In this document: piece by piece, positions 2,331 through 55,500 of the stretch | Layout: every line of letters starts with the position of its first letter | Numbering within the stretch: position 1 is the first letter of the stretch | Assembly: GCF_041260155.1 (NCBI RefSeq) | Contig: NC_091928.1 | Coordinates: 37,579,888 to 37,643,887, forward strand | DNA from: Ptychodera flava | Lineage: Eukaryota > Hemichordata > Enteropneusta > Ptychoderidae | Length of the DNA stretch: 64,000 nt | Direction of reading: 5' to 3' | Notes under the pieces: generated by a model | What the model was told of the DNA's origin: nothing | Databases searched by the model: none | The model's input: the letters and a program-made list of their open reading frames with translations, nothing else | Program-made: the position numbers and the translations under genes

Positions 2331-5159
2331 AAGGGACTGGACACAAATTACAGGGGGTGGGCCGGTGTTTTTTGGGGGTGGGTCACCATTTTTCGCGCAA
2401 GCATTTTTGAAGGGTCATAAAATTTTGTGTATGCCTATGGGGGAGGGTCACCTTTTTTTATGCATCAAAGCTGAACTTGCATGTGCACGTATTGAAGAAT
2501 ATGGAATACTGAAAAAAGAAAAAATACCTCCTGGCACTTTCATTTTCTGCCATTTCCATTTTCGGCGCGCCCTTCGGGTGCAAGTTTAAGGGTATAATAA
2601 ACAATGTATTGATGATCCAAGCACTCACATTGATTTAAGTTTTCATGGTTTCTACTTATCCAACTCCTCTATTGTGCATAACTGTCCCCTATTATGACTC
2701 TTTCAATAACAATTTGGGAGATCACTTATCTGATATCATTCTCCCATTGGCAATACATTAGGTATTGGTGTCAAATGTTCATGTCGCTGTATGTACATTT
2801 TTTTTTTTTTGAGGACATTGACAGAATACAAACTATTCAGAATAGTGCAAAATGTCATCAATAGCAACTAGAAGCTTCAGGCGGAACAACTTTTGAATAA
2901 CAATTTAGGATCAGATAACTTATGAGTTATTTGTAGTTTCCTCATTGCCTACAATGTATAGTGAATCAACATTTCGGTGAAATTCCAAAATCAAATTTCT
3001 TGCACAACCATGGACTTGAAACCACTCTAGTCTAATCATTAACATTAATACTAATAATTAAGTGTACACAAATGCACAGATTTACTTAGTTTTGTATTGG
3101 AAAAAAAATTCATAGTTTTGTCATAGACTGCTATGCATTGTGAATCGACATTTCAGTGAAATTCCAAAATCAAATTTCTTGCACAACCATAGACTTGAAA
3201 CCACTCTAATCTAATCATTAAAATTAATACTAATAATTAAGTGTACATAAATGCTCAGATTTACCTAGTTTAGTATTGGAAAAAAAAATATTCATAGTTT
3301 CATTTTAGACTGTTATGCATTGTGAATCGACATTTCAGTGAAATTCCAAAATCAAATTTCTTGCACAACCATGGATCTTGAAACCACTCTGGTCTAATCA
3401 TGAACATTAATACTAATAATTAGGTGTACATAAATGCACAAATTTACCTAGTTTTGTATTGGAAAAAATATCCATAGTGTCATCATAGACTGCTATGCAT
3501 AGTGAATCGACATTTCAGTGAAATTCCAAAATCAAATTTCTTGCACAACCATGGACTTGAAACCACTCTGGTCTAATCATTAACATTAATACTAATAATT
3601 AGGTGTACATAAATGCACAGATTTACCTAGTTTTGTATTGGAAAAAAATATCCATAGTGTCATCATAGACTGCCATGCATAGTGAATCGACATTTCAGTG
3701 AAATTCCAAAATCAAATTTATTGCACAACCATAGACTTGAAACCACTCTAGTCTAATCATTTACATTAATACTAATAATTAGGTGTACATAAATGCACAG
3801 ATTTACTTAGTTTTGTATTGGAAAAAAATATTCATAGTTTTGTCATAGACTCTTATGAATGTGAATCGACATTTCAGTGAAATTCCAAAATCAAATCCAT
3901 TACACAACCATGGGCTTGAAATCTCTCTGGTCTAATCATGTACATTAATACTAATAATTAGGTGTACATAAATGCACAAATTTACTTAGTTTTGTATTGG
4001 AAAAAAAATATCCATAGTGTCATCATAGACTGCTATGCATAGTGAATCGACATTTCAGTGAAATTCCAAAATCAAATTTCTTGCACAACCATGGACTTGA
4101 AACCACTCTAGTCTAATCATTAACATTAATACTAATAATTAGGTGTACATAAATGCACAAATTTGCCTAGTTCTGTATTGGAAAAAAAATATCCATAGTG
4201 TCATCATAGACTGCTATGCATAGTGAATCGACATTTCAGTGAAATTCCAAAATCAAATTTCTTGCACAACCATTGACTTGAAACCACCCTTGTCTAATCA
4301 TGAACATTAATACTAATACTTAGGTGTACATAGATGCACAGATTTACTTAGTTTTGTATTGCAAAAAAATTATTCATAGTTTTGTCATAGACTGCCATGT
4401 ATAGTGAAACAACATTTCAGTGATATGCCACTAAAATCAATTTCTTGCACAACCATGGACTTGAAACACTCTAGTCTAATCATGAACATTTCCAATAATC
4501 GAGTGTACATAAATAGACAGATTTGCCAAGTTTTGTATTTTAAAACAATTATTCTTACTTTTGTCATAGACTACAATGTATGATGGATGAATTTTTTATG
4601 CGAAATTCCAAAAACAAAGTTCTTGTACACAGATGCACATGTTACCACCCTCTTCTAATCAAGTACATTATGTCAATTATTCAGGGTCCATATATGCACA
4701 AAAAGTGCATATTATTAATTGTGAAAGAATTTTTTTACAGTTTTGTCATAGACTCCCATGTATAGTAACTCAACATTATCGATGAAATCTAAAAATTACA
4801 AATTGTTTGTACACGCATGCACTTTTTACCTGCCACTTCAAGCAAAGTACATTTACATGAATTATCACACACATATGATTTGAAATTTTTTGGACAAAGC
4901 GTTATATCAGCCACATTTTGCCTTCCTTTTGGAGGGGGATTCAAAAGTATAGCAAGTTAGAAGGGGGGTCTTGAACACATTGCGGGTTTGTTGGGGGGTA
5001 ATGAGTAACAGGGGAGGGTAATTTATTTTCATGCACGGATAAGGGGGAGGGTCACTAATTTTTGTGCATGAACTTTTGAAGGGTCACTATTTTTGACGCA
5101 GCGGTGTTTCGAAAAACTCTGGCCCACCCCCCCCCCTGTAATTTGTGTCCAGTCCCTTA
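2331..5159. mobile_element. 2.8 kb inverted-repeat element carrying a 180-bp satellite
   Basis: The left end AAGGGACTGGACACAAATTA and the right end TAATTTGTGTCCAGTCCCTT are exact inverted copies, both continuing into G/C runs and a GTGGGCC-like block. Inside are a CGGCGCGCCCTTCGGG motif (about 2563), shared with family A, and then a tandem array (2870-4890). The start AGGGACTGG is shared with family A, so the two are probably related. No transposase is seen, so it is non-autonomous. What I infer is that the array amplified inside the element or was captured by it. Confidence 0.8.
2870..4890. repeat. Tandem satellite, period about 180 bp, about 11 units
   Basis: The block GTGAATCGACATTTCAGTGA recurs at about 2961, 3140, 3322, 3502, 3682, 3861, 4042, 4223, 4404 and more weakly at 4581 and 4765, which gives spacings of 177-184 bp. 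Each unit also has a TTGCACAACCAT segment, an ACATTAATACTAATAATTA segment and a short A-run. The central units are nearly identical while those from 4400 onward are clearly diverged, the usual pattern of homogenisation within an array. No coding potential is seen. Confidence 0.93.
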
Positions 5160-16426: not shown

Positions 16427-19400
16427 ACAAGTGGAAAACAGGACTAAGGATTTATTAAGAGTTGCGATCATTAGACGAATGTCTCAACTTATCTTTTTCC
16501 GTTGCTTTGGTTCTGCGTGTCCTTAATTGTGTTCATTATGCATGTTTCCACATTGTGCGCTGGATGGTTCCATTCCTGCAGTAGATAGGGGCATGAAAGT
16601 TGAAAAGGGGATCTTTTTCCGTTGTTTATCTCAACCCTATTACTCAGGGTTGGCTCAACCAATTTATCTTATCTCTTCTTTCTAGCCTTGCCTTTTATTT
16701 CATTTTCCTTTTTGCATTTTATCTCCTCGTCTTAGCCGCCGGCCTTGAGCGCGTTGTTGTCTACAGATGCTCTACTTTGTTGAATATCTTTTCATCGCCA
16801 GAGAGCACCGAATATGCGCTTGCTGATCGCAGACGGTAGATTTTTGGTGATCACAGGAGGATGGTTGAAGTGTTTGTGAATATTTACTCGTAGGTAGATG
16901 GGCTTTCTATACGGAGAGTTCTTTCCATCTTGAAAGGTTCATTGGTAGATCCAAGTAGTCTATTTTTAAGTTTGTTTCCACAGGTATTTTCAGTTCTCTA
17001 TCGCGGAAGAGTGATCTAATGTCTTTCTTTATTTTCTCTGACTTGTTAAATGTTACCTGAGATGTTTTTGAAGACAGCTGGGCTGTCATCTCTGTATACA
17101 CCTATTTGGTTTTTTTTCGTATTTTAGTGCCAGGATGTTAAGGATGCAGAGATCTACCAGTTCACATAGTTTCGCTCCATCATAACGCCCTATTGTGATG
17201 TCGAACATATCTTTATTTTCTCATTTCGCCAATGGCTGATCTTTATCAAATAGAGCTATTCTGGCATTCGTTATGACGTTGATATTCTCATCAGAAATTA
17301 CGGTGTACTGTTTCGCAAAACAAAGGGATTTACGTAGAATTCCTTTTGTGAATGATGGGTAGAAATTGACGATATCAAATTCTATGAATTTGTAACTACT
17401 TTTGTCTGGTATGGCCTTGAACCGGTTTATCACTGATGCTGACGCCAATGGATGATCTATTTCGGCATTTATTCTGTCAAGCCACTCCTTACTCGCACGT
17501 CCCATTTCGCTCTTCGTTGTGTTGATAGTCGACGTCTGCAGTTTGGGCTGAGGTATGTTGTGGAAGTTGTCCTTGTGATCTTTCAACGTGACGAATGTTT
17601 GTTGTTTGGCCAGTGTATTCATTCTGACGTCGATGCCAAGACGTTCTGCAATGTTCTTCGCTTCAGTATTTATGTCAGTATACAATCTCTTTGGCAATTT
17701 TGTAAGTCTTTGTCATGTTGTTCGTAACAGCAGTTTCTCGTAATAGGTATGGACTGACCTTGTAGAAATTTCTGGTCTTGTCGGCAGGCACAAATATTTA
17801 ATCTGATTGTTTAACAGTTTTGATATCTGCTTTTAGCTTGTTTTGGAAGGCGGCACCCGTGTTCCTGAATTTGATGTTTGCTATCATCCAAGCATATGAT
17901 CCTCAAAAGGTTTCATCATGTCAATCTATGGTGGGCATTTTCTTGTTTTGAATCCGAATTTCTCCTTGTGATTCTGCTAATCAATATTGTCTCTACCCTT
18001 CCGGTAAAACATTCTGTTACATGACTTTAGCTTACTGCTGCTTCCTGATTAATGTAACCTACTAAATGGCTACAATGTTACCCTTAGACAATCGTCCTCA
18101 AAAGACTCTTTCAACATTATTCATGCCAAATTAAAAAAATATTCGGTTCCCACCATTTCAGATTATTGCCTTTCAAAGTCCTTTGACGGTTTCCTGTTCT
18201 CAAGTTGGTCCCAATGAATATTTACTTGATCTAGTTCCTGATTGCTGTTTAATAGAAGTTTGCATTTTGAAAAGTATATACTGCAAATTAAAAAATAAAC
18301 ACAGAGTAACACGATATGAACTAATTTGGTTGAATTGGATATATTAATTTTTCAAATTTACCAAAAGTTTTGGGTGTCATACAGCTTAAAGTTGCAATAT
18401 TACAAATTACCCACAAGAACAAGTGTATATCGGAAACAGAAAAGCAGATGAGCTTAAATTTGCAATGAAAAGCAACATTACTACAATATACAATATCCTA
18501 AATTAGTTCCAATCGTGTTCTCTGCATATGGGTTAGTGGTGTGAAACCCGTGAAACATTTGTTTTCATGTTCGTGGTCATTGTGTTCAGAGACTGTCAAT
18601 GCAAAAACTCACGGTGGTTCTGTGACGGCCTATTCAGAAATGAACTGAAAGGGGCTTATGATAAAGTCTGTTTTTTTCTGTACCTTCATCACCCAGAAAT
18701 GGCACACAACGACAACAAACTTGGAGAGCCCTTGAAATCCATGAAGGGAATAGTACGTGGTGATCATTTGGTTGTCAAGAGGACAATTCACCTACACCAT
18801 GTTCTTGCGTTAGAAGACATAACTGACGCAAACAAGACGAGTATTGAGGTAATTGAATACAAACATCACTTACTGGTACTTCATAAAGTTGCAAAGTCTG
18901 ATATTTCTGTAAACTTAGAAAAGGATTTATGGTACAAAGTTGACAGTAATTCATGTATGTCTTTTGCTGAAATCGAAAGAGGTCTCAAGAAAGCAGAGAC
19001 ACAGATTGGTTTTAAATCTTATTCTCAGACATGTGAAAACACCTGCGAAAATTTTGTGTATTGGTGTCTTTCAGAAACAATTTACAGAGAGCCTGTTTCC
19101 GATATATGTGGTATAAAACGAGGTGATCATATCATTCAAAGTGGGGCTCTGGATTAGCATATGATAGCTTAGGAAGATGGTTCACAAGACACACCATTGG
19201 AAGTCATTCAATACACTTTTGGGAAAGTGAACAAAAGTGAAATAGCGTTAAATCCCAATAAGCAGTCGCTTTTGAGAGTATTGTATCCGGAAAACTGCAT
19301 GATAGATGGAATTTTCAATGATGCAAACATAGTTCTTAGAAAAGCGGAAAGCCAAATCGGTTTTACAAAGTATTCTTCAGAGAGAAATAATGACGAGCAT

Positions 19401-21416
19401 TTCGTCAACTGGTGTAAGACAGAAACTGGGCACAGAGAACGCGTCAATAAGATGTCAGATATTAAACTTGGGGACCATATCATTTATGTAGGGGCTTTGT
19501 CCATCGACTATCACTATCTCGCTCTTAAAAATGGCAAAGATAGTTGTGACACAGTACGTGTAATACAATATAAAGTTAATAAAGTCGTTGAAGAGGATGT
19601 CAAACTAAGTACAAATGGAGGTCGATTATACCGCTTTGTAGACGATGACGATGATCTCATTGAGCATGATGTCGAGGAAATTATTTCTCAAGCAAAACGA
19701 CAACTTGGCGAAAAACAGTATTGTGACGAAGCTAACGACAATGAGCATTTTGTGTATTGGTGTAAAACACGAGCAGAACACAGAGAACGTGTTTCCAACC
19801 TCGAGCAACTTCGAGATGGCGATCATCTTATTATAAAAAAGTATAGAGGTTTGAAAGAGCATCACTCGTTGGTTGTTGAGAATGAGTTTAGAGAAAAGGA
19901 GATTATTTATTACGACTCGAACATGGTTTCGAAGGATAGGCTGTCTGTTGACCCCTCAAAAGAATATGTATATCGCTCGTACAGAAACCCCTATGATACA
20001 GCCCACCTACTAAGAAAGGATAAATTTGGCCAGAAGGCAAGGGGAGAAGTTGGCAAGAGTTTCTACTGCATCGGGAATAATGAAAACAGACATTTTGTGA
20101 AATGGTGCATGGTAAACACAGAAATTATTGAGGAAGTTAATAAAATTGAGGAAATAATTACAGATGACTGGTTCATTCTTTTTGACAGAAGTAAAGAGGA
20201 GCACCAACTTTATCTGGCGACTGGAAATGGCCATACAAATAAAATTGATGCCATAAATATGTCCTACTATCTACAGAGCCCAAGCACTAACAAAACAATA
20301 TCTGTTCATGTGAATCCTACGGATCAAATATTTCGAATCCTGTACTGCTTTGAAGAAGATCCAATATCGGATATGAGGTATAATTTTGAAAGCAACATGA
20401 AAAATGGGCAATCTGTTTACGGCTCTCTGTTTGTCGAAATGATGCACTTAATGAGACCTGACCCCACAAGAGTTAAACCTGTTACGAGGGCTGCAGATAT
20501 AAGAAAAGGTGACCACTTAATGCAATGTCGCTTTGGAGGTCTTTACTACCACCACTTATTGGCTGTTGAAAATGGTTCGTGTTCCAATAAGATAAAAGTA
20601 ATTCACTTCAGTAAGTCTAGAGCAGAAGAGTTAAGGAGTAAAATAAAAGAAGAGGAAGTTGAAATAGACAGTAAAACTGGACACTGTTTCATTATTCTGT
20701 ACGACGTTTGCGATGATACTGACACAGTGGTTAAAAGGGCGAGACAAAGAATTGGTGAAAAGGGTTATTCTCTGGAAAACAACAACTGTGAACACTTCGT
20801 TACCAAATGTAAGATCGGTTCCAAACAATGTGATCAACTAAATTACGGGGGCAGAAGAGTGCTAGCAGCTTTAGCAGAACAGAGTATCGACGTTTCCAAA
20901 CAGCAATTTATAGATGCGCCTTTGAAAACTTCAGCTGCTATTGTGGCAGAAGCAGCATTACTCCGTATTGTTATGAGAGCAGCGGCCAGAGGTCTCAGTC
21001 CCACAGCCACGGGGATTCGGACTGTTGTTGCCTCAAGCAGTATTGCAGCAGGCGTAGCCGTCCTTTCTGAAAGTGCTTTTTTAACACATGACGCCATAAA
21101 AGTGGAGAGAAAGCTAAATCAAGTCCGTAACACGAAGAAGGAGAAACATGACATTTTCACTTGGCAGTGGCAAATTGGAGGGGCATTTGTAGGTGGAGTT
21201 GGAGGGACTATTGGAGGAGGAGTGGTAGGTCAGATTTTAATACCAGTACCAGTCTTGGGATTTGCCGTCGGTAGTGTAGTTGGGGGATTAGTGGGGAAGC
21301 TTACCGCAATGGGTGCAGGTACGGGCATAGGCCATGCAGCATACAAATCAAAAGGGATCGATGTATATATGGATTTTCTTTGCTCCGTGAGGAGAAATAA
21401 AATTCTCAATCAGTGA
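15859..21416 (+). CDS. Six-module LRAT-domain protein, two in-frame stops
   Basis: Coding exons are 15859-15910 and 18697-21416. The first ends in phase 1 at a GTAATT donor; the second starts with AA after CTGTACCTTCATCACCCAG, so the join gives ...DGE-E-MAHND in frame. LRAT-fold modules (NlpC/P60-like thiol enzymes; acyltransferase or phospholipase activity in known members) start with GDH-type boxes at about 18758, 19120, 19469, 19817, 20160 and 20505. Only module 6 has the complete signature: GDHL, YYHH, NNNCEHF with the catalytic Cys, and [10 protein letters not shown]. Module 1 keeps a Cys (TCENF); modules 2-4 have Asp or Asn there, and module 5 is degenerate. A Gly-rich hydrophobic C-terminus (about 21170-21340) suggests membrane insertion. 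TAG codons at 19155 and 19170 lie in frame inside module 2, where sister modules have Tyr and Leu, yet 739 codons stay open afterwards. It may be a null allele, an assembly error, or two separate units. An AATAAA lies at 21536. Confidence 0.8.
15968..16034. repeat. (AT)n microsatellite
   Basis: Pure alternating AT in the first intron of the LRAT gene, directly abutting a MITE copy that starts at about 16035. Confidence 0.9.
16035..16253. mobile_element. ~200-bp MITE (AACACGATTGGAACTAA family), copy 1
   Basis: It matches the better copy at 23640-23838 along its length, with ends GATCGAAACTAATTTAGGA and the inverted TCAGTTCTAATCGTGTT. Both ends adjoin (AT)n DNA. It is diverged relative to the 23.6 kb copy. 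Confidence 0.75.
16254..16422. repeat. Compound (AT)n-(TACA)n-(AT)n microsatellite
   Basis: It begins with two extra copies of the MITE end AATCGTGTT separated by TA-rich spacers (16267-16294), then (AT)n, about eleven TACA repeats (16328-16367) and (AT)n again. Open frames through this are repeat products. Confidence 0.92.
16600..17990 (-). mobile_element. Decayed Penelope-like retroelement fragment (reverse transcriptase)
   Basis: On the minus strand, 17221-17697 encodes part of a reverse transcriptase with TLKDHKDNF, an ILDKIN-like helix region (WLDRINAEI) and the [13 protein letters not shown] catalytic-motif block. Flanking minus-strand segments (about 16620-17100 and 17700-17990) resemble the parts that normally precede and follow it in a widespread invertebrate retroelement family that I associate with Penelope-like elements bearing a GIY-YIG nuclease; the nuclease end is not seen. 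The copy is clearly broken in several places and is a fossil. It lies antisense within the first intron of the LRAT gene. The family name comes from memory and is not certain. Confidence 0.7.
18308..18519. mobile_element. ~200-bp MITE (AACACGATTGGAACTAA family), copy 2
   Basis: It starts AACACGATATGAACTAATTT and ends with the inverted AAATTAGTTCCAATCGTGTT. The interior matches the copies at 16035, 23640 and 38231. It lies about 180 bp before the large LRAT exon. Confidence 0.8.
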
Positions 21417-22290
21417 AAATTTAGTGGTCTTCAGCTAAGTTTCCATCGCCGTTTAAGTAGTAACTCTGTTGTCATCATTATTGCTCGTTTTTTCCTTCCA
21501 ACATGCCTTAGCGCATCCCATTTTGACAGACCTCAAATAAACAAGTCATTTTCAATGACATAGTACCCACCAAATATAAATTTTGTCACTGTACTGCAGT
21601 GAAAGTGCGGAAATGTGTTTGCAAATGCACTTTCAAGTCACAAGACCAGTAGTAAGTAAAAGTCGTCTCAAGTGTGTGTACACACTTTGGCAGGATACAA
21701 GCATTAAAATATGCTGAAACAGTAAATGATATTGGGACATGGGAAGAAAAGTGGGGGAGGGTGCTTCACAGATAATTTTGTAGGATTACTTGGACAGGAA
21801 GGGTTAGTGGTGAGACTACAGTGGAATTGAAGTTGTATAAATGGGGGATCGAAAATAACCTTGGAATTTTCTTAGCAAATTTTAATGCAGATCAATAGCA
21901 ATTATGCCAATGTTACACTAATAACATGTTTTATGTTGGTATGGGTCATTTAAGATCTTCAGAAGCAACAATCCCAAAAATATTCATAATAAAATACAAA
22001 ATGTAAAAGTATCGCAACAAAGTAACACATTTGCATAGGAATGTGAAAAGTAACTATGGGACATTTATCAACCTAATGTAACCTACAAATAATCAGTTTT
22101 GGCAATGTTGCTCATTTTACCTTTTTTAACCTGGTTGTCATATTTTGATCGATGGAAACATATTCAATCATACAACTTCACATCTAAGCCCTAAACCCCT
22201 GATTTCCATTTGCATTGCCACTGATTCAGATTCGTGTATGGGCTGGGATTCAGAAAATTGCACTGTCACATTGGTATCAGATTCAGATTT
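21417..22290. other. LRAT 3' flank, no other gene recognised
   Basis: The probable 3' UTR runs to a polyadenylation signal AATAAA at 21536-21541. Beyond it is AT-rich DNA with no recognisable gene. A short open frame at 22145-22408 has no family resemblance. Confidence 0.5.
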
Positions 22291-26304: not shown

Positions 26305-28048
26305 TCACACTATGTCCCTTCCATCAAGTGTGTTCAGGAACATGGAGCACTTCTCAAGCCACACTATGGCATCAGCCATCTGTTTGGTTGGGAAGTGTAG
26401 CTGAATCAGGCTGCAGATGCTGTGCAAATCGCGGTATCTTGACCTAACGTCAAAACCGAGTGCGTGTTGGAGTTTTCTGAGACAGATGGGACACAGGAAG
26501 AGTGGCTGTGACATTGCTTCTTCAATGGCGCTGCTCTCATTCATTGCACAGTCAAAGAAGACACAGTGTGCCAATCCAAATATATGGCATGTTTCATGAC
26601 TCAGGACCTATAAATACCAAAATAAAAAAGCATTGTAAGGATGGATTATTTTTCAGATTGAGGTGTATGTACAAAATACTGTACTGAATGTATTTGTATC
26701 AAGAACCCAGAGTTCCCTTTAACTGTTGATATTTATGATTTTTATAAAAAAACATTTCAGTTAGCCCGAAATATGTGATATTTCAAATTTACTGATATTT
26801 GAAATTCACAAAGGCTGAGTTGTCTTAACTATATGGGGAAAATACAATTTTCGATTTTCACAAAAGTAGGATGGCGAAACTTTTCCCACACCAAGAGTTT
26901 TAAAATGAGCCCCTACAAGTGGTAGATCAGAAAAGAACTGTAAAAGTTTGCGAGTCTTCATATCTGTCCTGGAGGCCTGTTCTACCAGTACCTTAATCAT
27001 CAGTTTCGATAAATAGCATAATGAAATGAGTACTATGTGTGATTTTCTTTAATTTTCTCTCTGTAATACTGTAATATAAGCTTACCTTCAACAGTCTCCA
27101 CAGTATCTGTCCATCAATGGCAGTGATGTCTGGATCACCGTCAATTTCATTGCCTTTGTAAGTCCTGGGCTCAAAACGACCAAAACTCAAAACTGCACTC
27201 CGATCCTTGTAGGATGCTTCTCCGAGAACAAAGTTCAAATCCTCACTAGGGTACAAGTCTGTCCAAGATATGCCCACCACAAAGTCGTTTTTAGAGTGTT
27301 TTGTCACATGTCTCGTTATTTTTGTGAGGATATCAGACACCAGGATTTGTTTCTTGCCGGTGACTTTGTGATGCCGAGTTGTAAAAGGTAAGTTGTCTAC
27401 GTTCAGTTCATCCAATATTTCAACTCCCATTCCAGCGAAGAAAGCACTAGCGAAGGCTTTGAGCAGGTTAAAAAGAGTTTTATCTCCGAGGCGGAAGTTA
27501 CGTATGAAGTCTGGGAATTCGCCTAGAGGCTGCAAGAACAGAGTTCGATGGCGTTTCTTTGTCCAGGGTAAAGAGGTAAACAATGACCCTATCTCGATTG
27601 CAACTTTCCACTGAGGGAACGTCTGGCGATCGACTAGTGGAATCGGGTCTTTCACGCGAAAAAGTCTCTCGGTTTCTGATTCTTTACCCCGGTCACCACC
27701 CTGATCGGTGCCACTGGAACCGATACATTCCTCCGATAAAAGGAAAAATTTCCTCATTGGTACATCAAATTTGGCTGAATCTAGGGAGCCAACGAGTACT
27801 CGAACGCGATGAGCTCTCTTTTCGAGGGTAGTTTTCCTTCTGCATAAAACGAGTCGACTGAATTCCATAATAATGAACAGCAATACGCAATACCCTACGA
27901 AAATAACATAACCGCACCCGACTAGGTACACGAACGCGACGTACAACGTCAGAACAAACAGTCGGTAAAGCAAGCTGAATGGAGTCCACATACGACGTCG
28001 ATTTTTCAGAAAGTGTAGATTACTGGGACATATACGCTCTACCAACAT
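26305..28048 (-). CDS. AMZ: Archaemetzincin-type zinc metallopeptidase with N-terminal membrane region
   Basis: Exon 1 is 27086-28048 and exon 2 is 26305-26607, joined in phase 0 (421 residues). The donor is AAG|GTAAGC and the acceptor TTTATAG|GTC. Exon 2 opens with VLSHETCHIFGLAHC, the HExxHxxGxxHC zinc motif, followed by the family's Cys pattern (HC-x4-CAM, then CPIC 16 residues on) and LQHALGF. Exon 1 carries ILVSDILTKI, GISWTDLYP, NFVLGEAS and LSFGRFEP, all typical of AMZ1/AMZ2. Residues ~24-69 are strongly hydrophobic, enough for one or two membrane spans, which AMZ proteins do not normally have. An in-frame TGA lies a few codons upstream of the ATG, supporting this start. Known family members are peptidases of unclear physiological role. 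The vertebrate AMZ1/AMZ2 split may not apply here. Confidence 0.93.
26812..26996. mobile_element. Truncated TTAA-ended MITE in archaemetzincin intron
   Basis: A reversed partial relative of the 24233-24597 element, ending CTACCAGTACCTTAA. It sits inside the 478-bp intron of the archaemetzincin gene. Confidence 0.6.
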
Positions 28049-46518: not shown

Positions 46519-49500
46519 TTATTTCTTGCTGTTCCGTTGCTGAAGGAGTTGGCATTGTATTGTGTTTATCCTTTCCACTGCTGGCTGGAACTCTGGTTGA
46601 AGTTTTAAAGTGGCCTCATAGTACCGTATTGCCTCTACGTAGTTCTCCTGCAAGACAATAAGAATGCACAGCATTATGTGATATCTCTGCAGATCTATTC
46701 ACTCGATTCAATGCAAGAATTTTCATCTGTGATGAATGAGATACATATTACATATGGTCAAGCACTTCATTGATTTGCAAGAGATTGATTTTCAACAATA
46801 TCTCTGTGGCAAATACTTTCGTAAGTGTTTATTTGAGTACTGTTTCTGCTGTCAATGTCCACTGTCTGATCATCAAATATTCTGTTGTTTTTTTCTAATT
46901 TCAGAAAAAGGAAGAATCTTTAACATTCACCTATGGTGGCGCTCTTCATTTCCCGTTTGACACTCCCTATATTACAAAGAGCAATTTCATATAGGATTGA
47001 GACTGAATTTGAATGCTAGATATTTAAAAATGTTTCACTCTTTCAGGCCTGACTTTCTGGTAACTTACCAGAGCTACCCCTATATGAAGGGGTTTAGGCC
47101 TGAAAGGGTTAAAACTCTACTGCCTTTTAGAAATATTATTCAAATGCTCTCTCTTTTTCCCTTTATCTATCTGCAATGGTGTTTTTTCTGAACTGAATTT
47201 CTAAATTTTTTTGACTGGTAATATTACCCAAATTTGTCATCAAACTTTTTACACAAGGATTGTTTTCTAAGTTTGCGCTCCATCTATAGGGTAATGATAA
47301 TGGCAGAAACAGAATACAAATTTAGAGAAGAATCTGACATGAAAAGTCTCCTGCTATGAATGCTGAATAGTATATACTGCTGTACATGACATCATCATCA
47401 TTGTGATGGTTTGTCAGACATTCCAAGGACATTTCATAAAGAAACATTCATCTCAGTAATCTGTCAACCAGACACAGCTGTCCTTATTGAGATAGGGGAC
47501 ACTTCTTAACCAAATTTTCCAGCAAGATTTGGACTTTATCTGATCTATAGGTACATAATTGAACTTTTGCTGAGAGCTAATTAATTTCCCACAGTTGACT
47601 TGCCATGTACGGTATTGGAGCTGTAATTCCTAGCTGGGATAAAAACTCCCATCAGACCACCTGTTGTAGTCAACATTACATAATATGATAGTGGTTATCT
47701 TAAACTACCCTATATTTAGAATTTTGTCGATATTCTTATATATATATCTTCATGTTTGGATAAACAGTGACTGGCAAGCGATAGAATCACATCAATGCAA
47801 GGTTAAAACCCATTTGCCCGGATTCCATGTACATGGGTCAAATCATGGCATTCGCGGTAAAAGAGAGACTATACCGCAGCAACTTAAACCTTTCCCACCA
47901 TGGTTTAGACCCACCACATTGTTATTTATCCCTTTGAGTGCTGTAATTTTTCCCATCGAAATTTCAGTGCAACATTTTACCAATTTTTATGAATTTTTCT
48001 ATGAGTTTTTAGGTAATTTTGGACCAAATGGATCACATTTCATTGGCTACAGTTTTTTTTATCAAAATTTAGGCAAAAATCAGGGGAAAATGGTTCAAAA
48101 AGTTACTTTTGGCGCTCAAAGTGTTAATGGTGATGCTAGACCTGTGTACATTGAAAATGGGGATGAATGGGTCACAAAATACCCTTGAGAAACTGCCGTG
48201 CTGTGGTTATATAATCCATCTTTTATCTCCAATTGAAACTCTGGTAAATTGGATTATTGTAACAGCTTTCCATTCTATCAAAACACTGATACAAAGAGTA
48301 CAATATAACATATAGAATGACCGTTGAAACCACAAGTGAATGACATTCATACAGTATTCCTAAATGTGGAAATGCTCAAAAGAACAAAAGGTCAAACATC
48401 GATTCTGTAACACCTTTACCCCCACCCCTCCACCCCCAACTTTTTTGTGTGTCTGTGATGTAGAAAACCATCCCGTTGAAAGGGACAAATCTGGACCAAA
48501 GTCTGACGGTGACATGGTTTAGGACTAAAGAAACACTGTCAAGTTCATCTGTGTGTCCTCTGTCTCAAAGTGCGGTATTCTGAGTACATGAGAAATAATG
48601 GCTTGCAGAATGACTGCAAAACATACATCTCTTTTTAATCAATGCTCCACACTTTCATGTTTTATGATATGAATGTTCGACTCACCATTGCAGAATAGAT
48701 GTTAGCCATTGTGAAGTGGATGACCACTAGATTGGGTGAAATCTCCATGGCCATCGCAGTGACCACCAAGGCGTCCTCGTACAGCCCAGCACGGTGGAAA
48801 ATGTTAGCCATACTAATAAGTGCAACATCCTGAAACACAGATATCAAGAAATTACACATACATTGTAGGTAATTGTTACTTTTCGAACCATGAATATATG
48901 AAAACATTAAATTTAAAATTCTGACAAAAGTGCCATTTTAAGAAAATTCACATCTTTCCATCTGTGGCAATTTCTACTTTGAAATAATAACATTACTTTG
49001 ATTGTCATATAAACAATAAAAAATGCACTTTCTTCTCCAAAATTTTCAAAACAACCAATGATCTATAAATGACTGTAAAACTCTACACAAATTCTCAACA
49101 GTAAAAAAAAGTGTAGTTTCAAAGATTTCAAGATGACCCACTGTTTATAAATAACAACAAACTTTGATAAAACAACTGTTTTCCTGAAAATCTGTCTGAA
49201 TCATGCAGGATAAATTCCACTTCAGAATGGTAATCTTACCTTGACTGGCCTTGGTGAGAAGAAGAGACCTTGTCTAAGACATTCTAAAGCCTTCTCTGCT
49301 TCGCCTTCCACTCTCCAATACAACGCCGCCATATTGGCAAGCACCCACGATGTCTGGTTGAAACTGATGGCAATGTTAATCCTGGTACCGATGTAATGGT
49401 ATGATTCAAAGTCACCACCAAGGGTTTCTAAAACCTGCAAGACAATAATAATAAAACTTGGTACCTTTGCTTTGCCATACAAAGTCGATATACTGCTGCA

Positions 49501-52500
49501 GTTATCTGACTTCTTAACCCTTTGAGCGCCAAAGTCAATTTTTGTCACCTTTATAAAATGTAACCCAATCAAATTTTTTCAGATTTTTTCCAAAATTTTG
49601 ATAAAAATCTGTAGCCAATGAAATATGATGTCTGTTTGGTTCAAAATTATCAAAACTATAACAGAAAAATTCATAGAAACTGGTAAAATATTTCCCTAAA
49701 TTTTGGTGGGAAATATTACAGCACTCAAAGGGTTAATAGTTTGATTCTGTCATACAGTACATGCAGATACCAAGTCATACAGGATATGTGGATAGCTAGC
49801 CAGCAACCTATCCAGCCCCGTGCTACTTAAGTATTAGGGAAACACAGTGAGGTACTAGTTAGGATACCATTCTCACTATCGGAGGATGGTCAGTTCAAGA
49901 CCTGGTAAGTCCAAGGTAACAGACTCACTGTCAGAGGATGGTGAATTTGAGACTCCAGCGCAGTGTTGGGCAATTGAGCAAGGCACTTTACTCCTCAGTG
50001 CTCTATTGAGCAGTGGGTAAATGGGTACTTAATACGGTAATTGGGCTTTCACTTGTTGGTTGAAGGATAAAAATGTTAAAGATATATTAAATATTACTGC
50101 AATTCTATTTTGCGTAACCAACTTAACGACAATGTAGTGATACTGCCGCAAAAGACACTGGGAACATGACTAGGATCCTGCTGGAATTTTTCTACCACTG
50201 TATGGTCTGTTTTGCAGGGATACTATTGGAGTCACTGTATACTGGTACGTTCTTGTTATACAGGTTCCAATTGAAATAATTTGTTCAGCACCCAGACTCT
50301 TCAATGGAAGCCAGGAGTCTGGACTGTGGACACATCTGAGAAAACAAGATTCATTTTTTTTTGTGTTTATGGAATTGTAATACATGTATATCTACGGATG
50401 AATCGTTCACTCACTTCTTTAAGTCCTTGTTCAGCAGAATATTCAATCTCATCTCTCTCAGCAAGTCCTTTGAGATGATCCAGAGTAAATAGACTTGGGC
50501 CAATGGTTGCTTCACAGTATGGTTCTAAGATGATCTCCTCTATATCATCATCAAAGTTGATGTGGTCTCGCAAGCTGTTTGATGGATCGGTACAATTACT
50601 TACATTTTGCTGTGAAGAATACAATTTGCTTGCATATTTTGCAATTTAAACTTTAATCATTTTAAAACACTTTGAAACAAGTTTGGCAAATAGGTGACTG
50701 CATGAAATTTTGTCAGGAGCCTGTTTCACTTACATGTATGTACAGATACTAAATACTATGTGTGTATCAGGTCAGCTGCTATTTGGATTTACCGGTACTC
50801 TACAGAAATGTTGAAATCATTAAATTACAAGATGAAGAGGCCGGTCTCAAACAAATGTACAGTAGATGTGTATCTGAAATGTAAAACACCACATCAGCAG
50901 ACCACTCACTTGATGTCCTTGGCTGTAACAGAAAGCCATGTGCTCGTAAAACTCTTCAGGTTCACTTTCTTGATGTCTTTACATTCTTCTAAAGAAGGCC
51001 ATGGATACTCTGCCGTCTCTATCAGCATGGCAACAGTTGCTAAGAAACATGTACACAATAATTGCAAGGCTTGTTAGTGTACTGATAGGAAAGCACTGGC
51101 ACTTTTCATAACTGTACTCATAACCATTGGTCAAAAATGTTCTCCGCAAAGTGAATGATGTTTTTTTAGAGTGTAACATGCTGCAGTTGTTGAGTGTTTT
51201 ATGTTGGAAATCAGCAAATTTGAAAACAGGTGATTCATGCAAATATAACTGTGTGAGAAAATTGGTGGATAACTGTCACATGACACGATACGATCAGTTG
51301 AAAGTTTTCACATGATATCGTGCATCATGAAGCAAAATGTAAGGGTGCCGATACTAGCAATTCACTCCTTCGCAAAGCTATCAGATAGAAAATCTATTCC
51401 ACAGGATTGCTGAGGAATTTCAACGAGACGGTTTAGCACATAGTGAACAATTCAACGTTACTGCTGAAATCCTGCAAACAACCAATCAGAGTCCCACTGG
51501 TCCTGGTGAACTTTGACCCATAGGTTTTGTCACATTCATACAGTTATAGAGAAGAAACAGTAACTGGAGATCACACAAAATGCTGACAGCTGTGAATTTC
51601 AGAAGATTTTGACTCACTCTCAAGTTCATGTGTTCCTGGTATCTGGGGTCCAGTCAGTGTTGGGGTGTTTGTTTCTGATTTGCTTCCTCCACCATTGTTC
51701 CTGTTTTTATTCAGATCTTTGCTTTGATTTTTGTTGTGGTTGGAGTTGTTTCCATTTGTAGTACTTGTCTGTTTTGTCTTGGTTGTTGATGATGTTTTTA
51801 AGTTCACTGTCACCTGGGGGGAAATAAATAAATCACAACTGAATTTAAAACCTTGCAGAGATCCCCTACAGATGCACATTTCCAGCTGACAACAGAATTA
51901 TGAGTAACAGCTAAGAGACCAACAATACAGCTGTTTGCAAGTGATGTCATTGTTCTCTCATCAATATGCAAAATAGAAATTTGTTCAAAATTTGGATTAA
52001 ATTTTAGGAACAACAAAAATTTAGAATGAAAGACTTAAACTTTTGCTCAAACTTGCAGCCATTCTCTTTCAAAATGAATAACAAAAATACCGCAATTATA
52101 CAGTGTCGCTCAAATTTGATCAGAATTGGTATATACCAGTACGGGTTACCAATGATCAACAATAAATGTCGTTTCTATCTGTTCAGTGGAGGAAAATTCT
52201 ACGTTGATGTTATGGCAATGATTTCTGCACAGTACAACCAGAAAAACAACAAGAAATATTTAAACCAGAAAAACAAAGAATGACAAAAGTAATTAAGGTC
52301 TGAAACTTTAGGTACTGGAGGTCAACTTTAGCAACATGCATAGCAGAAACAAGACCCTCTTAGTTTAGTATAAACGGTCTTCCCCCATCTACTGTCTATG
52401 GTTGCAGCTGGTCTGTTAATATGTAACAGTTCATATACAATGACAGGAAATGAGTCAAGATCAGTGGAGTTTGCCTGTTTCTCACTGGCATGCCTCCTGC

Positions 52501-55500
52501 ACATTTGCAGGATTTCACTTTTTCTTACCTCATTTGCACATTTTTGACACTGATGTGTTCATTTGAACAAATTCACATCTCAACCCCTGCATCTACCTGT
52601 ACACCAAATACTGAGATGGTAGCTTTGGCGGTATGGGAGTCTTTGTGTGTGACGGACATACATCCGCACATACCCACAAATATACAGACATACAGACATG
52701 CAAATCAGATGCAAATGAACTGATTCAGCTTATACGATAACCTCACGTTGGTACACCAAATGTGAACTAAAAATTGTGCAAATTTTGGTACTAGAGAAAC
52801 AAATTACCAAATATGTACCGATATTTGATATTCAAAATGGCCACCATCACTGTATTATTCTCAAACTACATGTATTCTTGGCTCGCCATAAACCTTGATT
52901 ATTGCATGTCCATAAAGTAAACTTTTTTGTGGGGAGAATTCTCTGAGTGTTTGTCAACTTGTAACAACTTACCATTTTCTTGCCTTCAGTGTCACTGGAT
53001 TTCAAATTCACAACATGCTGTTCTTCACTCAATGCCTTGGCAACCGGCGCAAACAATTCTAAGCTTTCCTCTAGGTTTTCTAAATCCGTGAGATCATCCT
53101 CGCCAATCTCGATGATCTCCAGCGCATCCGAGATGCACTGCTGCGGCGCCGGGGAATGACACTGGAAAGCTTTGTTTTCTTCACACTGCGAGCACACTTG
53201 ACATTTCCGGGGTCCGGATTTGCCATTGGGATCGCCACACATCTCTCTCGACGGAGGGCCACCACAGGTCGTCTGGCAGATGCTGGAGCAGCTTCCGTCG
53301 TCCGCACTGACGACTTTCCGTTGTCTGGTCTCCAGCTGGCACTGTTCAACTCCCTGCACATGGTGACACACAACTCTCCGCTCAGTCTGGCTACTGGAGC
53401 TACTAGTAGCCGACGACGACCGTTCCGGTCTCTGACACATGGCAGAGTCACTGCTCTCATCATCGTTACTTTTTGCTGCGCAGTGATACTTCTCATGGCA
53501 CCTTAGGGTGTGAAGTGTCTTCAGAGCAGGTTCTAAGTCCGGATCTAGATCCAGTGCTCTGATGTATTCATGGGCAGCTCCACTGTAATTCCCTTTAGAG
53601 GCCAGTACATTACCGTATGTGAAATGAGTTACAGCCTGTAGAGAAAAAATAACATTTATTTAGTCAATAAAACATATCTTTCTTAAACTCTTTTTTAAAC
53701 ATATTTGTGGCAGTAAAGAGTCCTTTTCCTGAGAAGAGCAGTTGTTTGAATCATATACAAGATAGAGTATCTAAACATGTCTTCAAAGTTTTGGCAACAT
53801 TTCATTATTGTGAAGAGATAGTGGGCTGTGTCTAAATCACTGACTACAAGGAGATGTTTAGGTTCACAAACAGATGCACTATGCTGTCAGTTAGGTGTAC
53901 ACTGCACTCTTGTCCACTTTAAATTCACAACGTGATGTTCATTTCTGGAATGAATGAACCAAATAGTTTAGGATGTGCAACTACAAATAATTGTCTGACA
54001 GGTGAAAGACAGGAGCTTAGGATCTCTACATGGCTTTCAACTTTGATACTAGTCAAGTAACTACAATATTCTTTGATAATTGTTCATTCCTCCTCCTGTG
54101 CAGAATTACTGAACAGAACATAACAACTTGCTGGTTGTATCCCCTTTGCAATGTTTTAAGGTCAAACCACTGGTCGGACATTATTAGGGGACTGATCACA
54201 GAGTGTAGATTTGCCAAGGTTGGGCCAAAAACTCACACAGAGTAGATTTGCAAGAGTTTGGCCAAAAACTCACAGAGAGTAGATTTGCAAGAGTTTGGCC
54301 AAAAACTCACAGCGAGTAGATTTGCCAGGGTTTGGCCAAAAACTCAAAGAGAGTAGATTTGCAAGAGTTTGGCCAAAAACTCAAAGAGAGTAGATTTGCA
54401 AGAGTTTGGCCAAAAACTCACAGAGAGTAGATTGCAAGAGTTTGGCCAAAAACTCACAGAGAGTAGATTTGCCAGAGTTTGGCCAAAAACTCAAAGAGAG
54501 TAGATTTGCCAGGGTTTGGCCAAAAACTCAAAGAGAGTAGATTTGCAAGAGTTTGGCCAAAAACTCAAAGAGAGTAGATTTGCTAGGGTTTGGCCAAAAA
54601 GTCACAGAGTGTAGATTTGCCAGGGTTTGGTCAAACACTAACTGAATGTAGATTTGCCAGAATTTGGCAAAAAAAATCAAAGAGCGTAGATTTGCCAAAA
54701 ACTCATATAGTGTATGCTTTCCAGTGTTTGGCCAAAAACTCACAGAGTGTGGTGTTTGGCCAAAACTCCCAAAAAGTAAATTTGCCAGCGTTGGGCCAAA
54801 AAATCACAAAGCGTAGATCCAAAAACTCACAGAGGTTGGCCAAAAACTCACAGTAGATTTGCCAGGGTTTAGCCAAACACTCACAGAGAGTAAATGTGCC
54901 AGAGTTTGGACAAAAAATCATAGAGTGTAGATTTGCCAGGGGTTGGCCTAAAACTCACAAAGTGTAGATTTGCCAGGGGTTGGCCAAACACTTTGACTAA
55001 CCTCAGTGTCATTGACTGCCAAGGCTCTCTTCAATAGGATACCAGCATCTTTGTGATTACCGACTCTCTGCATGATATTAGCAAGATTGACCAGAGGTAC
55101 ATCAAGGTACCTCTCCGGTGCAAAGTGTACAGCTCGGCGTAGACACTCAACTCCGTGGTAGTTGTTGCCGATCACTCTCCAATACAATCCAGCTACGGTG
55201 TAGTGCAGCCACTTGTGTGGAAGATCCTGCAAATCAAAAGTGAACACGTTCAATTTTCACTTCAATCAGTTCTGCTCTCCCATGAAAAGAGATGGTGTTT
55301 GAATTTTCTGTCGAAACACAGCATTGCCACTGAGAAATGTCCAGTCAAAAACTTCACTGACTACAGATTTGCTTCCTCTTCATAGTGTCACAAATCACAT
55401 TTGAAAAAAAATTCCTTCAGCGGATATTATTATGACATCCAATGCGTAAAGTCAATGACCTCTACACCCTACCAGTACATAGACAATGAGATGTTGATAA

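Follow-up and report, generated by a model that had tools for sequence, protein, structure and literature searches.

A tandem array of LRAT-type domains was found on the forward strand of the window (the whole stretch of DNA that was analysed, 64,000 nucleotides of Ptychodera flava contig NC_091928.1), in a 906-codon reading frame made up of six units, each some 115 residues long, followed by a glycine-zipper tail. Modules 1 to 4 and module 6 are, by profile comparison, LRAT homologues, and only module 6 carries a complete His-His-Cys triad. Two in-frame TAG codons interrupt module 2. On balance, and with slightly better than even confidence, the locus is read here as a membrane-anchored gene of the LRAT branch of the NlpC/P60 papain-like family, whose six units would have arisen by internal duplication and become mostly non-catalytic, the copy at hand being disabled, misread or a source of modules 3 to 6.

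Reading frame, modules and tail

The initial annotation had placed six units in one frame at 18699-21416, and these coordinates held. The frame starts with an ATG whose context is favourable (A at -3 and G at +4) and ends with TGA at 21414-21416. Over 18537-21416 of the forward strand it holds three stops, the terminal one included, against ~65 that the base composition would predict, and the other five frames hold 34-88 each. No frameshift was found in the 906 codons, and there is no third internal stop. The description of the frame as a single exon was right as to coordinates and frame but overlooked the TAGs at 19155-19157 and 19170-19172, so that it is not open throughout. The frame and its parts are as follows.

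18699-21416, forward strand: LRAT-array reading frame, ATG to TGA, 906 codons, two TAG codons inside
18741-19103, forward strand: LRAT module 1, triad positions His-Glu-Cys by alignment; Pfam LRAT 31.2 bits (piece 18750-19130), over the cut-off
19104-19451, forward strand: LRAT module 2, triad positions His-Gln-Asp, both TAGs in its first half; second half 30.1 bits with Pfam LRAT (piece 19173-19490)
19452-19799, forward strand: LRAT module 3, triad positions His-Gln-Asn, starting with an in-frame ATG; Pfam LRAT 37.0 bits (piece 19467-19800)
19800-20144, forward strand: LRAT module 4, triad positions His-Tyr-Asn; Pfam 16.5 bits, under the cut-off; recognised by the sibling and bacterial/viral profiles
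20145-20489, forward strand: presumed degenerate module 5, His kept, Asn second, nucleophile box gone; from position, length and sibling profile
20490-20834, forward strand: LRAT module 6, sole complete His-His-Cys triad; Pfam LRAT 56.7 bits (piece 20499-20830)
20835-21413, forward strand: C-terminal tail, 193 residues, with a glycine-zipper hydrophobic part at about 21171-21360; from GxxxG count and hydropathy

Pieces differing slightly from the final module borders were scored with the Pfam LRAT profile (PF04970, curated cut-off 24.3 bits). A sibling profile was made by leave-one-out over the modules, with module 5 kept out of training and module 2 scored with X at the stop positions (2000 shuffles made, slightly fewer scored), and a third profile was made from 111 distinct bacterial and viral LRAT domains. 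The PF04970 cut-off was passed only by modules 1, 3 and 6 and by the second half of module 2; module 4 fell below it and module 5 gave no Pfam hit. With the sibling profile, modules 1, 2, 3, 4 and 6 scored 71.1, 99.8, 86.3, 53.5 and 71.9 bits, respectively, and no shuffle exceeded 13.1 bits (best of 1985 shuffles for module 4, 11.5). The bacterial/viral profile gave the same five modules 29.6 to 80.2 bits, matched by no shuffle (module 4, 29.6 bits against a best of 8.7 among 997).

Module 5 is a plausible sixth LRAT unit, placed mainly by its position and length. Its 5.4 bits with the sibling profile were marginal (15 of 1965 scored shuffles as high), and its -1.2 bits with the bacterial/viral profile were equalled by 652 of 984 scored shuffles. 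In pairwise comparison, 6 and 8 of 1000 shuffles scored as high with modules 3 and 6, and 144, 45 and 49 of 1000 with modules 1, 2 and 4. Structure models were made of modules 5 and 6 only and are too weak by themselves to settle whether the fold is the permuted NlpC/P60 one. The initial annotation had proposed PF04970 alignment and structure prediction as checks, with failure of modules 1 to 5 to align, or to fold like module 6, as its refutation; by alignment, modules 1 to 4 proved homologous and module 5 alone failed.

The tail contains 10 GxxxG motifs against a mean of 3.06 in shuffles (0 of 2000 as high), which bears out the glycine zipper described initially, and its hydropathy peaks at 2.1 in a 19-residue window. 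By composition it is a glycine-zipper membrane segment with a predicted span. Homology of the tail to bacterial LRAT tails, suggested by BLAST when composition was left uncorrected, proved non-significant (for the five tails compared, 33 to 418 of 500 shuffles scored as high). NCBIfam matches were confined to the tail (hemolysin BL component profile, 15.8 bits with a cut-off of 650; ribosomal protein, E 0.14) and were taken as composition matches. The best match in a PHROGs search had an E of 0.14.

Active-site residues and relatives

Catalytic residues of the LRAT family are Cys-His-His (PMC10318531); the HRASLS3 triad is Cys113-His23-His35, and HRASLS1 has Asn as third residue (PMC4624172). 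Triad columns were set by alignment with five plasmid-borne bacterial LRATs and the 111 bacterial/viral domains, and in these columns modules 1 to 6 read HEC, HQD, HQN, HYN, HN- and HHC in order. All six modules retain the base His, though for module 5 the alignment is uncertain. The Cys is present in modules 1 and 6, with Asp, Asn and Asn in modules 2, 3 and 4 and the box absent from module 5, as had been described. Both catalytic His had been assigned to the first box, which proved mistaken: the second sits in a later VIHF/VIHY strand and is missing from modules 1 to 5. The GDH...CEHF layout claimed for six modules holds for GDH in five of six and for a CEHF-like box in five of six, module 5 reading DDW and having no box. 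Despite the loss of Cys in modules 2 to 4, GDH and FVxWC are retained in modules 1 to 4. The aligned triad codons of module 6 are as follows.

20553-20555, forward strand: His codon, catalytic base position (module residue 22)
20604-20606, forward strand: second His codon (module residue 39, VIHF)
20787-20789, forward strand: Cys codon, nucleophile position (module residue 100, NNNCEHF)

HHC was read in 95 of the 111 bacterial/viral domains (79/79 genomic, 16/32 viral) and HEC in one. The genomic loci were retrieved through an NNCEHF pattern and the viral loci through an NNCEHF or HH-box pattern; conservation in those columns is therefore partly built into the sample, but the column of the second His is unaffected. 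Given the single HEC domain and the Asn of HRASLS1, activity of module 1 is conceivable. One or two active heads had been proposed: module 6 is the one canonical head, and module 1 a possible second. Tyr, Trp or Phe stands at the base-His column in 13 of the 111 domains, all viral, which may reflect either alignment shift or real variation.

A tblastn search of plasmids with module 6 gave 34 matching records (E up to 10), and five of them, aligned with module 6, were then used to obtain further bacterial relatives. The resulting 117 bacterial/viral loci comprise 80 genomic loci, the best 80 of at least 588, and 37 viral loci; the sample is weighted towards cyanobacteria, since a Nostoc protein stood at the head of the alignment used in the genomic search. 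None of the 117 loci had more than one LRAT domain in a single open reading frame (ORF), although the search would miss a copy decayed to the degree of module 5, and six of six plasmid records had one LRAT match each. Eight of the 117 ORFs gave two profile matches, in each case to the front and back part of a single domain, and a Caballeronia match that seemed to span two modules contained a single LRAT domain only. Bacterial "lecithin retinol acyltransferase family proteins" (PF04970) resemble module 6 in their HH..VIH..NNCEHF layout but have one domain, where six units occur here. Module 6 is 36, 41, 38, 30 and 32% identical to five such one-domain proteins and 25-32% identical to modules 1 to 4. 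A C-terminal tail of at least 60 residues with at least four GxxxG, like that of the array, was present in 14 of the 117 ORFs.

LRAT-family genes were observed in 37 contigs of the viral collection. No pattern match was found in viral contigs searched with a 747-residue part of the array, no relative among the 8 stretches returned from viral contigs or the 61 from genome contigs with module 6, and no match in phages searched with modules 3 to 6.

A tree was built from five modules (module 5 left out) and 50 bacterial/viral domains (45 drawn at random from the 111 and five from plasmids). A branch with support 100/99 separates the five modules from the bacterial/viral domains; no other eukaryotic LRAT is in the tree, so this common origin applies only relative to bacteria and viruses. 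Modules 1 to 4 group apart from module 6 (97/84), and terminal branches are long for modules 1, 3 and 4 and not for module 2.

Module 6 matched HRASLS2 at E 0.0014 and the five-module profile matched an HRASLS3/LRAT chimera at E 5.5e-05. Vertebrate PLAAT/HRASLS (H-rev107) proteins share with module 6 the NCEHFV box and the His-His-Cys triad, and have a C-terminal hydrophobic membrane part like the tail; such a span is a trait of the subfamily and appears here in the composition of the tail, as a predicted membrane span. In PLAAT enzymes, both membrane localisation and activity are influenced by the C-terminal span (PMC4624172, PMC9338259). These proteins are described with one LRAT domain, an N-terminal proline-rich part (PMC9338259) and, except HRASLS5, a single transmembrane helix (PMC5133064), whereas the array has six units in one stop-interrupted frame and a glycine zipper. 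It thereby departs from the single LRAT domain per protein that delimits the subfamily, and the contrast with one-domain vertebrate PLAAT proteins drawn initially agrees with the excerpted literature. Vertebrate FAM84B/LRATD2 has an LRAT domain that keeps His without Cys (PMC7140883); it keeps both His, whereas modules 2 to 4 lack the second His as well as Cys and stand in an array. Vertebrate LRAT has a 30-residue insertion in its catalytic domain and, in the excerpt, is itself described as absent from invertebrates (PMC5133064), so "LRAT" here names the family and not retinol esterification.

LRAT/PLAAT enzymes remodel membrane phospholipids, and their vertebrate roles, including vitamin A storage and organelle breakdown, are filled by single-domain proteins. 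Among the papers listed in searches of a largely open-access collection, none describing tandem LRAT arrays was found; InterPro/UniProt architectures may well list multi-LRAT proteins. A published mention of "two LRAT domains" was dismissed as a precedent, the phrase referring in the excerpt to a homodimer interface.

In-frame stops and the state of this copy

The two nonsense codons are placed as follows.

19155-19157, forward strand: first in-frame TAG, immediately 5' of the His-base codon of module 2
19170-19172, forward strand: second in-frame TAG, five codons further on

Both fall within 18 bases in the first half of module 2, and two random stops would lie within five codons of each other in about 1.1% of cases. 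With these codons the sequence as read cannot encode a single six-module protein. They count against the proposed gene as a working whole and make a kept pseudo-enzyme scaffold doubtful for this copy. Two features flanking the frame bear on its state.

18670-18696, forward strand: 3' splice-acceptor-like stretch, pyrimidine run ending CAG; a candidate from its sequence
21536-21541, forward strand: AATAAA, closest polyadenylation-type signal downstream of the stop; a consensus match only

The CAG lies two bases upstream of the ATG, and by a simple pyrimidine score 93 of the 3501 forward-strand AG sites of the window, this one included, are equally good; an upstream 5' untranslated exon before 18699 is possible.

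A dying gene would account for the two TAGs directly: a duplicated LRAT gene, free of constraint, would have lost catalytic residues and gained nonsense codons with no scaffold function. The long branches of modules 1, 3 and 4 and the barely recognisable module 5 are consistent with such decay. It sits less well with 906 codons free of frameshifts and of further internal stops, with the acceptor-like site, good start context and polyadenylation-type signal all being present, and with modules 1 to 4 retaining GDH and FVxWC though 2 to 4 lack Cys; the close spacing of the stops hints instead at a single local event. Decay of this kind is a serious candidate that we nonetheless consider doubtful.

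Alternatively, a living gene may make the complete six-module protein, the stops being unreal and due to assembly or base-calling error, or bypassed at the RNA level by editing, readthrough or removal of a small intron; this view overlaps the proposed one. The clustering of both stops in an otherwise open frame and the residues around them, which still match the module core, argue for it. The small intron was rejected: the 94 in-frame GT-AG pairs (donors 19000-19155, acceptors 19172-19419) include no convincing one, their best donors matching only 4/7, and each would delete the His-base strand of module 2. Taken as a whole, this alternative seems unlikely.

Two separate products would be module 1 alone (18699-19154) and modules 3 to 6 with the tail, started at the in-frame ATG at 19452. 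This ATG has A at -3 and stands exactly at the module 3 boundary, and the frame is uninterrupted from there to 21416. The module 2 in between still scores well as an LRAT homologue (99.8 bits), which would not be needed of a spacer, and the arrangement is regarded as improbable.

In the reading favoured here, of a membrane-anchored, mostly non-catalytic gene that is eukaryotic and probably invertebrate, one LRAT domain would have given six units by internal tandem duplication. By analogy with known family members, the Cys of module 6 would attack a phospholipid ester, forming an acyl-thioester from which the acyl group would pass to water or another acceptor, and the tail would hold module 6 at the membrane. 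Modules 1 to 4 would have kept much of the structural core while losing active-site residues (the second His in 1 to 5, Cys in 2 to 5) and, with the more decayed module 5, may act as non-catalytic spacers or binding domains, for which FAM84B offers a precedent. The copy as read may be a disabled allele or recent pseudogene, may be misread, or may yield modules 3 to 6 and the tail from the ATG at 19452.

The pseudo-enzyme scaffold proposed initially is upheld in so far as one complete C-terminal head ends a tandem layout, and is put in doubt for this copy by the nonsense codons. Its wider form, an animal lineage with a membrane-anchored LRAT enzyme whose one catalytic head follows four or five pseudo-LRAT domains selected for binding lipids or acylated partners, is held tentatively, as a somewhat less than even prospect. 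An array of six modules with a single intact site would offer a natural experiment, in which a papain-like enzyme fold was turned non-catalytic while tethered to an active copy. Its value would be lower if the gene is a pseudogene, which the two stop codons make a real possibility.

Other features of the window

From its short exon-like ORFs, an archaemetzincin-type exon and tandem repeats, the window would be taken as animal DNA. No further LRAT copy was found in the 64-kb window outside the array at E <0.2 (tblastn), and Rfam gave no match at gathering thresholds. An ORF at 17221-17697 (reverse strand, 158 aa) matched no Pfam family at E <= 0.01; we take it to resemble part of a mobile-element reverse transcriptase. 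An exon-like ORF at 26305-26607 (reverse strand) matched Peptidase_M54 (archaemetzincin) at 31 bits (cut-off 24.4), and HETCHIFGLAHC within it is presumably a zinc-binding-type motif. Another exon-like ORF, at 52847-53659 (reverse strand), matched TPR_11 at 24.1 bits, below the cut-off of 26.8, and ORFs at 54948-55256 and 49222-49578 had no Pfam hit; together, the three are assumed to resemble TTC17. Two satellite-like tandem arrays were also observed, one at 2954-4539 with a 179/362-base unit (8.8/4.4 copies) and one at 54196-54992 with a 37-base unit in 22 copies.

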